Positions 3,570 to 59,743 of a DNA stretch of 64,000 nt are shown here, one piece after another. A program made the translations under genes and the position numbers. Source of the DNA: Escarpia spicata (lineage: Eukaryota > Annelida > Polychaeta > Sabellida > Siboglinidae); contig OZ023209.1 of the NCBI GenBank assembly GCA_963995525.1, positions 16,461,353 through 16,525,352 of the forward strand. The letters run 5' to 3'. The notes under the pieces are model-generated. The model had not been told where the DNA came from. It was given only the letters and a program-made list of their open reading frames with translations, and searched no databases. The first letter of the stretch is position 1, and every line of letters begins with the position of its first letter.

Positions 3570-3838
3570 ATGAACATGTATTGAGAAGCGTGTGGTCTCT
3601 TCCTTGTTCATTATTTAGGACGATCGCTGCCTTGGTCACAATGGTGTGCGTCGGTATCGTCACAGCCAACGACATGACAAAATACGAGTTCTGTATTATG
3701 CAGTGCGAAAATCTGTTCAACCTCTGCATTAGAGCACAATGCCCGGACAGTCCAGGACCTGTACTTGTTCCCCAGAAATGTCACGACGAACGAGCCAATT
3801 GCATTGAATACTGCCAACAGTACAAAGACGTCAATTAA
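3570..3838 (+). CDS. Small secreted cysteine-rich peptide, family member 1
   Basis: Proposed two-exon gene. Exon 1 is 3570-3577 (ATG plus 5 bases), the intron is 3578-3618 (GT...TTCATTATTTAG, 41 bp), and exon 2 is 3619-3838 ending in TAA. The product is about 75 residues. A hydrophobic signal peptide of about 19 residues ends near Val-Thr-Ala, followed by a mature peptide with seven cysteines spaced C-x3-C-x6-C-x4-C-x12-C-x6-C-x3-C. A Pro-rich loop (P-x-V-L-V-P) lies between cysteines 4 and 5. Cysteine spacing and loop match five other genes in this window, so exon 2 is almost certainly real. The exon 1 call rests on frame, signal-peptide fit and the same layout in other members; a 41 bp intron is close to the lower size limit. 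Extracellular; toxin-like, antimicrobial or signalling roles are all possible. Confidence 0.78.
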
Positions 3839-4114
3839 TACGCATTGCAGGCATGTTTCCGTCGAACCGGTGGATTCGTTCAAGTGAAATAAGCACACAC
3901 CAGCTCGAGTTAGAAACTTTGGGCAATATAACATTAATATGTCGCTAGTGTTTGAGGTAGTTATCCCTACGTGCAAATATGCGTAACTGAAACGTTGAAC
4001 ATTGCTGTTGTTGTTGTTCGAATCTTACAAGTCATACATGCTGTAAGGGGTTGTTTTATTCCAATTGTATTCTACCTGAATACGCATCTATTAATAATAT
4101 AGATACTATTGTAT
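3839..4114. other. 3' flank of peptide gene 1, no gene seen
   Basis: AT-rich sequence between the peptide gene and LINE copy a. No AATAAA is visible here, so the polyadenylation site is not identified. Confidence 0.35.
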
Positions 4115-5945
4115 ACTACAGAATGCTTGAATATCTTAAGGAGTGAAATTGAGTGCATCGTCGATAATAAGAAAGAAACACTTATCGAAAGAAGCCATTG
4201 GAAACATTAAGTACAAACAAATGACATGGCAGTCATATAGACGCACTGGAAATGATGAAGACTACAACAACATCCAACCCTGACCGTATGACTGCTAAGG
4301 AGTATTGGTCAGTACTCAACCAAATGACCAAGAAGAGCTCGTAATAAAACATGACAGCAAGAGTTTTTATGTATATGTTCGGAGCAAACAGAAAGTTCAG
4401 GATAAGGTCGGTCCTCTAGAAGATAATGCTGGACATATAATATCAGAGGGATTCTTAATGGCAGAAGACCTGAATGAGTACGTCAGTTCCTTGTTTATTA
4501 GGGAAGATATTAGTTCATTGCCATCGGAGACTAAGTTCAAGGGGGCGGAATCATACTATTTAGGACAATTAATTGTAACCCCGGATATGGTAACGAAGAA
4601 AATAAGGGCTATTAAGGAAAATAAATCACCTGGAGTGAATGGGATTCCACACAAACTACTATTGGAAATTGTAGAACAAATTAGCATACCGCTTGCAACA
4701 GTTTTCAACTTGTCATTAAACGAGGGACTGGTTCCTTTAGAATGGAAAGAAGCAAACTTTATACCATTATTAAAAAAAAGGTTCGAGAAACAAGTCAGAG
4801 AACTACAGACCAGTGAGTTTAATATCGGTGATTTGCAAATTATTAGAAACACTAATTAAAGATCACATCGTGGATTTTCTTGCTAAACATAACTTGATAA
4901 ACCCACCTCAACATGGGTTTTTAAAAGCGAGGTCATGCTTAACAAATATGTTATGTTTTTCGGAAAACATCATTATGTGGGTAGATGAGGGATCACCAGA
5001 ATATATTATCTACTTAGATTTTCAGAAAGCTTTCGACAAAGTGCCACATCAAAGATTACTGCTTAAACTAAAAACAACGGGTAATAGTTGATGGGGAGGC
5101 TTGAAATTGGAAATTAGTTTTGAGTGATGTACCACAGGGATCAGTACTGGGACCTATATTATTCTTAATATATATCAACGATTTGGACGATGATATAACA
5201 AGTAAGGTGTTGAAATTTGGTACTGTACTAAGTACTACTGTAAACGAAAAGGACTTAGGGTTAACAATTAGTGCCGATACTAAAGTACGGAATTGCAGCT
5301 TCAAGGGGAAATAAAATCCGTGGATTAATTAGGTGAAATATAGCGTATAAGGAAAAATAACTGCTAATACTGCTATACAAAACAATAGTTAGGCCTCATT
5401 TAGAATACTGTATACAAGCGTGAAGGCCATATCGCAAGAAAGACATAGATATGCTAGAAAGAGTACAGAGGAGAGCGATTAAATTATACAAAAACTGAGG
5501 GATCTTAGTTACGAAATACGCCTAAAAGATTGTGGTTTAACAACACTAGGAACCAGGAGATTGAGAGGAGATCAGATAGAAGTGTTTATAATATTGAATG
5601 GTTATGAAAATATTTGTTGATAGGAATATTTTTTCTCAGTTAAGAAAGATAGAAAGACTAGAGGACATGAAGTTACATTAGTAAAGAACCAGTGTAGACT
5701 AGATATAAGAAAGTTCTCATTTTCACAAAACGCTGTAAATGATTGGAACAGACTATCTGCTGATTGTGTTGGTGTTAGTAACGTGAATATGATTTAAAAT
5801 AAAATTGACACGTACCTAAGAAGGGCGGGATGCACGTAGATAAGAAGAGTTGAACTCTCGATAAGCCAAAAGGCTTCCTTGTCCACCTGCCATCTAGAGT
5901 TAATTCTCTGGGTGGCAATCGTGTTAAATCTTGTTAAATCTTGCA
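4115..5945 (+). mobile_element. LINE copy a (CR1/L2-like), 5'-truncated and broken
   Basis: Reverse-transcriptase remnant read in several frames. Conserved blocks are recognisable in order: SPGVNGIP near 4630, SQHGF-like (PPQHGF) at 4905, YLDFQKAFDKVPHQRLL near 5010-5060, and GSVLGPILFLIYINDLD near 5135-5190. About 185 bp that carry the FADD catalytic motif in copy c (31610-31790) are missing at about 5218. The 3' end has the family signature: CTCGATAAGCCAAAAGGCTT at 5857-5876, then a short tandem tail of TTGTTAAATC units rather than poly(A), as is usual for CR1/L2-type LINEs. Stops and frameshifts make it inactive. Closely related copies are at 13723-17522, 31409-32517 and 39318-42690. Confidence 0.85.
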
Positions 5946-7060
5946 TGCAATTATTAAGAAATAAACACAATTATTGTCGATATTATGTTTGACTGGTACT
6001 TACTACATTCCTTAGGAGAGGTTTTATAACTTTGCAAAGCCTAAACAAATATTATGCGTTTAGCATTGCTTTAAACCACCTCTACCCACACCCCGATGCC
6101 CAACAATACGCAGCGTGGGACGTGCGATTTTTACGATCCAAAATGGCTATTAGCGTAAATGTGCATTAAATAGCACGCTTCACTTGCTAGGTGGCGCCAC
6201 TATATCAATGCTTTCCCCCGCGATTCACGTTGACGTCCAAACACCCCCTAAGTAATGTCTGTGTATCGTGGCCTTTGTGAACTTATGCCACCATAATAAC
6301 GTCTCAAACTGGCAACATAAAAATTGTATTTACTGTTATGCTAAACATGCAGATTAACATCGAGTGTGGGAACTGTGCTTCATCCGACACGAAACGATAA
6401 AAACGATCCCAGGCATCGTCACTAATAGTCATACATCATATATTTGTCTTTGGTCTTGTGGGCAACGTAGGGCCTACGTGTAGACCAGCGTATTTACAGA
6501 TTTATTTAATGTGAGCAGAAACAATGAAGCCGCGGAAAAAAGTCAAGTGCGTGCGCAGCATCCGGTTAAAGTAAACATGATATCCGAAGTTCTATGTAGG
6601 CTTACAGGTGCATTTATTCACACTACTTGAACAATAAGAATGGATGGGTAAACACTCATCTATGTTGATATAAATCGCCTGTTCGTTATTTTTAATCCAT
6701 GCGTACACCGTCTAGTACATCTCATCAGGCGTGACCTAATAATGGAAGGAACGGAACCAAGTACAAATTGAAAACTTTAAATGCAACACCAACAAGCGGT
6801 TATCAAGTTAGTAAACACATTTGACATGCTGAGATCACGCTTGAATGTCATTCATTATAAAGAGTTTAAATTGAAACATTGTTTTGGAAGTAGCGTGTCT
6901 TTAACCGGATTTTCTTAAATGTCATGATCTTGTGGTTGCAGGAGACATTCCTTTCGTGGCTTCTTGCAGTTTAAACAAGATGTTTCGTGTCATAGGATAC
7001 GCCCTTGATTTTAAATAGCACAGTTGACCTCTCCATCGTGTGACCTCATAGCCGGATCCC
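5946..7060. other. Intergenic, no feature recognised
   Basis: No coding pattern, RNA gene or clear repeat recognised on either strand. Confidence 0.4.
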
Positions 7061-7501
7061 AAGGGGGGGGGGGGGCCTGGGAGGCACGTGCCCCCCTAAA
7101 CCTTAGGAATTTTGCATAGACCGTTTATAATCGGCCCACGGGACTGTGTCTCCCATAGACCCTTTGAAATGTGCCGCCGTTCAGGTTATAATGCTAAAAT
7201 TATAACGACGCGGCTGCAAAACACTTTGAGCAGCCCTCCACCCGTCTTCCCGATGTAACCATTTCAGCCGAGATAGGAGACGGCGTGAGACAGCGAGGAA
7301 GGTGAAATTGCGGCCGCGTAGCGACTACAATTTTTCAGCACCCCCCCCCCCCCCCCCCCCCCCCCCCCCCCCGTCTTCCGATGTCACCAGTCCAGCCGAG
7401 ACAGCGGCTCAGTTACGGCGGGGCGCGGCAGAGACCAAAGTTCTACTACACCATTTGATTCGACCGCCAGTGCAGGTGGGGGGGGGGGGGGGGGGGGGGG
7501 G
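7061..7501. repeat. G/C homopolymer cluster with local duplication
   Basis: A run of about 13 G lies near 7061-7075, a run of 32 C at 7341-7372, and a run of 24 G at 7478-7501. Around the C run, the segment starting near 7240 (CCCGTCTTCCCGATG) is repeated in diverged form from about 7370, so a ~55 bp unit has been duplicated. The C and G tracts are complementary and about 105 bp apart, so they could pair as a hairpin. Each could also form a G-quadruplex or i-motif. The proline/glycine frame across this region is an artefact. Confidence 0.85.
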
Positions 7502-59125: not shown

Positions 59126-59296
59126 TGGTCTCGTACAACGATAATAGCGCATGGGCGTAGCATACCATCGTCTATGCTATGCCGGGTACGTATCGCAATT
59201 TCGCACCCATTCATGACAGGTTGAGTCCGGGTAACGAAACGTACATGGACGCTTTAATACATCCGATGACCGTCGACAAGAATGTAGACATATAAG

Positions 59297-59302
59297 TTTA
59301 TT
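59297..59302 (-). terminator. Candidate poly(A) signal of peptide gene 6
   Basis: AATAAA on the minus strand about 245 bp beyond the stop codon at 59545. Confidence 0.3.
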
Positions 59303-59544
59303 CTGAAACAATACAAATAGCGCTTGTGTTTGCCAGAAATAATTATTTCTACAATATCTACTTAACATACACCATAGCTGATATTAATGGTCGACTAGTC
59401 ATATTTGTCGTCGTATCTGCAGCTGTCCATGTTATCTCACGTGTGACAACCTCATCATATTCGTCACATACTTTAGCCAGACAACATACTAAGTCAGAAA
59501 ACAACTAAGACTTGACGTCTTGACTGCACGCGAAGAAACATCGA

Positions 59545-59743
59545 TCATCTGATGGTTTTGCAGACGTCAAGGCATTTTCTCCATTCTTCGACGTATGCTT
59601 TCACCCCCGATAATGGCCCCTTCCGCCCAGGGCAGTTTCCCTCCAGGCACATTGTTAATTTCTCCTCGCAAAACAACAAACAACCCTCATATGGACCGAA
59701 TCGGCCGGCTACAGCTATATTGGCTATCAGCATGAACAACAAC
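59545..59743 (-). CDS. Small secreted cysteine-rich peptide, family member 6 (exon 2), cysteine 5 lost
   Basis: Minus-strand exon from 59743 (after acceptor TTTTTTACTTTTCAG) to stop TGA at 59545: one base of a split codon plus 65 codons. It contains the hydrophobic signal-peptide core LLFMLIANIAVAG, then the family framework with identical spacing, except that cysteine 5 is replaced by Tyr. The loop P-G-R-K-G-P-L is kept. Intron phase 2 agrees with member 1 but not with members 2, 3 and 5 (phase 0). No first exon with matching phase was found. Losing one of seven cysteines leaves an even number, so the peptide may still fold, perhaps with cysteine 3 or 4 re-paired. It could equally be an early pseudogene. 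Confidence 0.7.

Follow-up and report, generated by a model that had tools for sequence, protein, structure and literature searches.

Plant alpha-hairpinins fold as an antiparallel two-helix hairpin with a CXXXC motif in each helix and bridges C1-C4 and C2-C3 (PMC7191063), and the B neurotoxins of nemerteans (nemertide beta) are disulfide-bonded helical hairpins with six or eight cysteines that are neurotoxic in crustaceans (PMC6410017). The BCR peptides of aphids, encoded by a handful of partly clustered orphan genes, restricted to aphids and expressed in bacteriocytes, are small, secreted and rich in cysteines (six to eight), whose spacing is retained in a diverged core (PMC3574423). The defensin-like NCR peptides of legumes form a large, clustered family with a conserved leader and four or six conserved cysteines, are expressed in nodules, act on bacteria and range in charge from anionic to cationic (PMC7230169). 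We have analyzed a window of 64,000 nucleotides from the tubeworm Escarpia spicata (contig OZ023209.1 of assembly GCA_963995525.1, positions 16,461,353 to 16,525,352 of the forward strand), which is the left end of a gene cluster for small, predicted secreted peptides belonging to a real and large family that is apparently undescribed so far.

By design, the tubeworm peptides would be closest to the plant alpha-hairpinins and nemertean B-IV, and by biology to the aphid BCR and legume NCR peptides, kinship having been shown with none of them. They share with the alpha-hairpinins CXXXC at both ends, and their spacing and cysteine angles fit an antiparallel hairpin of two predicted helices; whereas the plant peptides have four cysteines and two bridges, here the x6 spacing supplies a third pair and the loop holds one odd cysteine, and no sequence kinship between the two was found. 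The nemertean toxins, likewise from marine lophotrochozoans, have the helical hairpin that we predict here but differ in cysteine number, which is seven in 89/102 of the tubeworm loci. Like the BCR peptides, the family consists of small, secreted-looking, partly clustered orphans with a diverged core and retained cysteine spacing, in an animal with intracellular symbionts, but where the BCR peptides are confined to aphids, all six relatives found outside E. spicata come from tubeworms; like the NCR peptides, it is large and clustered, keeps its leader and cysteines and spans anionic to cationic charge. The tubeworm family has seven cysteines, against four or six in the NCR peptides.

The original prediction placed six exons in the window (m1 to m6; Table 1), with the framework C-x3-C-x6-C-x4-C-x12-C-x6-C-x3-C (cysteines C1 to C7) behind a hydrophobic leader. 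All six lie where predicted, with AG acceptors at their first bases and stops at their ends, m1 on the forward and m2 to m6 on the reverse strand; the framework is exact in m1 to m5 but not in m6, which has six cysteines because a tyrosine occupies C5. Chance or a codon artefact can be ruled out as the source of the framework: it occurred in none of 200 windows simulated with a first-order Markov model, and each member, when held out, was recovered by a profile of the five others, with E-values from 1.5e-21 to 2e-14, among 1,256 open reading frames, the best non-member reaching E 0.067-0.36. A profile scan of the window yielded no seventh member, the next match after the six standing at E 0.44. 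Probably m6 is a decaying member; the two loci closest to it, L019 and L060, both have in-frame stops.

The family is far larger than the six members originally proposed: related loci number at least 103 in the 1.06 Gb genome, a lower bound obtained with six queries (m5, m2, L032, L055, L050 and L054). With m5 as query there were 79 matches within the limit of E<=10, of which 47 fell below 0.01, and 75 were kept after four repeat-like ones had been removed; the remaining queries, in the order given, added 10, 3, 4, 8 and 3 loci. Thirty-four of the 103, those of the window included, lie within 589 kb on genome sequence C5; other clusters comprise 11 loci in 92 kb on genome sequence C3, 13 in 0.4 Mb on C15 and ten at 46.2-46.4 Mb of C5, the remainder lying elsewhere. 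The match at C4:24415559 (E 0.8, with a stop) was also removed before counting. The four repeat-like matches (L059, L061, L066 and L072, on C6, C1, C13 and C4) share a cysteine-rich frame, nearly the same in all four and interrupted by an in-frame stop, which looks like a dispersed repeat.

Leaving out C5:46268362, 102 loci were read (75 + 12 + 15), and 92 of them retain the complete pair of arms, C-x3-C-x6-C and C-x6-C-x3-C (69/75, 10/12 and 13/15), a count somewhat biased by the preference of local alignment for ungapped arms, which are themselves not needed for a match. The ten exceptions (L008, that is m6, L038, L041, L056, L057, L060, L081, L091, L098 and L099) result from substitutions, truncations, stops or, in one case, a split core: C1 and C6 are missing from L081, L091 has the first arm only, and C2 is missing from L098 and L099, which are identical. 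Three of the two-arm loci (L019, L028 and L058) have a stop, either within the core or behind it. Between the arms lie 14 to 22 residues, the middle of 24 with two cysteines printed for L026 being an artefact of a mis-set C1, and the exact x4/x12 spacing in a stop-free core is found in 33 of the 75 loci kept from the m5 search. Thus, the palindromic spacing first proposed holds throughout the family for the two arms but not for the x4/x12 middle and, since the arms are kept while the middle varies in length, the signature of the family is two fixed arms and a free middle. Exactly one cysteine is present in the middle of 89 of the 92 two-arm loci. Other than the cysteines, the best-kept positions of the 33 exact cores are P23 and R34 (31/33 each), F9 (30/33) and V26 (29/33). 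The middle is rich in proline and its loop reads CPGRTWPLPVPQKC by the commonest residue, although the G, R and K of this string are found in only 12, 14 and 9 of the 33.

Mirror-image arms joined by a middle of free length are what a hairpin with three disulfide rungs needs, and we therefore regard it as probable that the peptides form an antiparallel two-helix hairpin bridged by C1-C7, C2-C6 and C3-C5. Each arm would be a helix, the two would pack against each other, stapled by these three pairs, and the odd cysteine, C4, would provide a covalent dimer link or a reactive thiol. On ideal helices the cysteines stand at 0, 40 and 20 degrees in the first arm and at 0, 340 and 20 in the second; confined to 40 degrees per arm, and with fixed arms and a free middle, they strengthen the hairpin originally suggested. 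Neither m5 nor the six members nor the 54 cores described below matched any PDB sequence at E<=10. With its third rung and odd loop cysteine, the stapled hairpin would be a scaffold for which we found no description in the open-access papers searched, Pfam, NCBIfam or PDB sequences.

The exons do carry the predicted hydrophobic leader, but they are second coding exons and the leader begins in an upstream exon, as expected of exons that follow AG acceptors and begin with hydrophobic residues. First exons were located for m1, m2, m3 and m5; those of m4 and m6 were looked for upstream and not found. Exon 1 of m1 encodes MSVEIRTQGWEK, against MFLDIRTQRWEK in a protein of Lamellibrachia satsuma, and the start of m2 exon 1 resembles that of m1. 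The 23-base exon/donor stretches of m3 and m5 are one base apart and had no occurrence in 100 shuffles; since the pattern was derived from m3 and m5 themselves, it attests to their kinship and is no independent test. In a survey of acceptors at 64 loci, a short first exon of the form M-x-x-L/F followed by GTRAG was seen at seven, m5 and m2 among them, and the best-scoring acceptor, 40-110 bases before C1, is in phase 0 at 56. The joined leaders of m1, m2, m3 and m5 have a hydrophobic core (best 11-residue Kyte-Doolittle mean, 2.75-3.21), from which we infer that the peptides are secreted.

The view that this is a multigene, secreted-looking lophotrochozoan (annelid) family with no named relative stood up to searches of Pfam, NCBIfam, the PDB and protein collections. 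With the six members, Pfam returned only DUF842 (E 0.24, m4) and Pox_I5 (E 0.15), both under the curated cut-off; with the 54 cores there were hits to four families, each by a single core (best E 0.041), none reaching the cut-off, and no core had an NCBIfam match at E<=0.1. The 54 cores come from 66 loci matching the seven-cysteine pattern; left out were those with identical or near-identical cores (L003, L035, L051, L052, and L036, near-identical to L018), those with stops (L014, L019, L028 and L058), L033, which ends at C7, and the repeats L059 and L061. One core matched Toxin_21, a spider toxin family of Pfam, at E 0.083, which we take as chance. Mitochondrial twin-CX3C proteins, for which the small Tims and the DUF842 match of m4 were considered, are ruled out because the tubeworm members carry hydrophobic leaders and additional x6 cysteines. 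No description of the family was found in the open-access papers searched or in the consulted passages of tubeworm papers.

The family had been described as rapidly evolving, and 399 of the 528 pairs among the 33 exact cores are indeed synonymously saturated, but none of the 128 pairs with measurable synonymous divergence (dS) has a ratio of non-synonymous to synonymous divergence (dN/dS) above 1. The highest is 0.76, the mean of the 13 pairs with 0<dS<1 is 0.49, and m6-L019 and m5-m6 stand at 0.56 and 0.61. Adaptive evolution is thereby not supported for these core pairs, at the level of 41-codon averages, which may mask single sites. The analogy with toxins is not supported either: with a partly conserved loop and no measurable pair above 1, the family bears little resemblance to toxins that diversify fast. 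The mature part, counted from the fifth residue before C1, has a net charge between -9 and +13 among 60 stop-free members, 27 of them at +2 or above and 20 at -2 or below. Stops, truncations and identical (L034/L035) or near-identical (L002/L003) cores point to birth-and-death evolution, in which the arrays would expand and contract through tandem duplication and decay. On C15, identical cores stand at separate places and strands (the triplets L050/L051/L052 and L093/L094/L095, and the pair L098/L099), reflecting either recent duplication or assembly copies. The core of L091 (C5:46277200-46278000) is divided between two matches about 400 bases apart, as is that of C5:46268362/46267888; an additional intron, or sequence inserted between the arms, could account for both.

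Relatives outside E. spicata were sought among 5.8 billion proteins. A profile of the six members matched two proteins of L. satsuma and one of Ridgeia piscesae, and a second profile, built from six divergent members, added three more, all of L. satsuma, so that all six are from vestimentiferan tubeworms; this suggests a family restricted to tubeworms, and suggests it only, because the search detects relatives that have exact five-residue words in common with the query. By themselves these hits would make a vestimentiferan origin of the window very probable. Five of the six have all seven cysteines, the partial model P0126 lacking C1, and P0003 has two additional residues between C3 and C4. 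In a tree with few columns and many open forks, which leaves m3 to m6 unplaced, P0001 (L. satsuma) is the orthologue of m1, with 72% identity and support of 99/92, and P0002 (L. satsuma) and P0003 (R. piscesae) group with m2 (95/90). P0124 and P0125 of L. satsuma carry near-neighbour tags, come from contigs of equal length and both fall with members of the cluster on genome sequence C3 (97/96), in a clade that also contains L042 of C5. That cluster therefore probably predates the split of the species.

Large, clustered, lineage-restricted sets of secreted-looking peptides that combine a fixed scaffold with a varied surface and charge are usual among peptides that face microbes. We tentatively favour such a role here, at somewhat less than even likelihood: once released, whether on the skin, in mucus or in tissue that houses symbionts, the hairpin peptides would act on or manage bacteria, with diversification of charge and helix surfaces on a scaffold and loop that stay the same. 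Counted in favour of this reading, hairpin included, are the two arms in 92/102 loci, with one cysteine in a middle of free length in 89 of these, the cysteine stripes, the phase of the acceptors, the leaders, purifying selection and orthologues in two other tubeworm species, together with the range of charge, matched by NCR peptides, among which there are cationic, anionic and neutral ones (PMC7230169).

Several observations weigh against a microbe-facing role or the structure on which it builds. One third of the members scored for charge (20/60) are at -2 or below, unlike classical cationic antimicrobials. A conserved loop and dN/dS below 1 would suit a fixed partner, enzyme or receptor, equally well. 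In the trophosome of Riftia, Hinzke et al. did not see host immune proteins increase overall (PMC6918071). C4 is a phenylalanine in L011 and L013, which have no cysteine in the middle, so this cysteine is not indispensable; the arm count carries the alignment bias given above, and the acceptors of m1 and m6 are one base off the phase of the others.

A bolder version, unlikely in our estimation, would make the family an animal counterpart of the NCR peptides, evolved in a gutless, chemosynthetic worm: of more than 100 stapled-helix peptides, part would be delivered to the intracellular sulfur-oxidising symbionts and would govern how these divide and differentiate. That antimicrobial peptides of the host influence the symbiont cell cycle has been put forward as speculation by Hinzke et al., who point to histones (PMC6918071). 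The family offers more than 100 candidate loci, some with tubeworm orthologues, for how vestimentiferans confine, enlarge and stop the division of their intracellular symbionts.

The peptides could instead inhibit proteases, plugged by the hairpin loop as in the alpha-hairpinin trypsin inhibitors of plants, among which the buckwheat inhibitors have their reactive Arg between two CXXXC motifs (PMC7191063). The conserved, proline-rich middle, in which 19 of the 33 exact cores have Arg or Lys at core position 20, and the many cathepsins of the trophosome proteome (PMC6918071) fit this proposal; since the same position may also be G, W, L or H and several divergent members are without the loop motif, we consider it doubtful. 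The odd number of cysteines in 89 of the 92 two-arm loci would also be in keeping with matrix peptides of tube, mucus or cuticle, cross-linked through C4, and tube proteins are expanded in vestimentiferans (PMC8476170). A wide range of charge and more than 100 divergent loci would exceed the needs of a matrix, however, and the family is not among the tube proteins named in the consulted passages of PMC8476170, where the Paraescarpia list has a different, trypsin-inhibitor-like cysteine-rich tube protein, and so this alternative appears improbable. Purifying selection and the conserved loop could reflect the receptor partner of signalling peptides or pheromones; at least 103 loci in large arrays would be unusual for hormones, and we hold this to be more improbable still. 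The extra cysteine in 89 of the 92 loci could, as a free C4, bind sulfide or persulfide, as vestimentiferan haemoglobins do through free cysteines (PMC9921365), but this is very unlikely, with Phe at C4 in L011 and L013 and haemoglobin already filling the role. Descent from, or a role like that of, the nemertean B toxins, to which the original prediction had likened the spacing, is scarcely credible: B-IV is a disulfide-linked helical hairpin (PMC6410017) and Toxin_21 matches one of the 54 cores weakly, but there are six or eight cysteines there against seven here, dN/dS is below 1, no PDB sequence matches at E<=10 (the presence of a B-IV entry being unconfirmed) and a venom role would be unlikely in a sessile, gutless animal.

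Table 1. Exons of the six family members in the window (positions count from its first base)
Feature	Position	Strand	Remarks
m1 exon 1	3244..3281	+	MSVEIRTQGWEK and two bases; donor GTAAGT; start as in L. satsuma P0001
m1 exon 2	3619..3838	+	leader and exact seven-cysteine core; L. satsuma P0001 72% identical
m2 exon 2	11027..11272	-	leader and exact seven-cysteine core; groups with P0002 and P0003
m2 exon 1	11945..11986	-	donor GTAAGT, phase 0; alternative ATG possible at 11956
m3 exon 2	13387..13614	-	leader and exact seven-cysteine core
m3 exon 1	18185..18196	-	12 coding bases, MKIL; 4.6 kb upstream; putative link to m3
m4 exon 2	23758..23982	-	leader and exact seven-cysteine core
m5 exon 2	43514..43741	-	leader and exact seven-cysteine core; query for genome search
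m5 exon 1	44474..44485	-	12 coding bases, MTIL
m6 exon 2	59545..59743	-	Tyr at C5, six cysteines

Elsewhere in the window, a 148-codon open frame at 34409-34852 (reverse strand), which ends in a CCPICAGP motif and has no Pfam match at E<=0.01, may belong to a gene of the host or to one derived from a transposon. The 251-codon frame at 31661-32413 (forward strand) has 7,880 relatives in the database, of which the best reach 81-86% identity and many contain the RVT_1 domain, and is a piece of a widespread retroelement. A long GA-rich tandem repeat occupies 24755-25169, near a stretch of N around 25.7-26.0 kb. A reverse-transcriptase fragment (RVT_1, E 2.7e-18) lies at 49310-49915 on the forward strand, and its end is overlapped by 3.1 copies of a 62-base tandem repeat (49836-50025).

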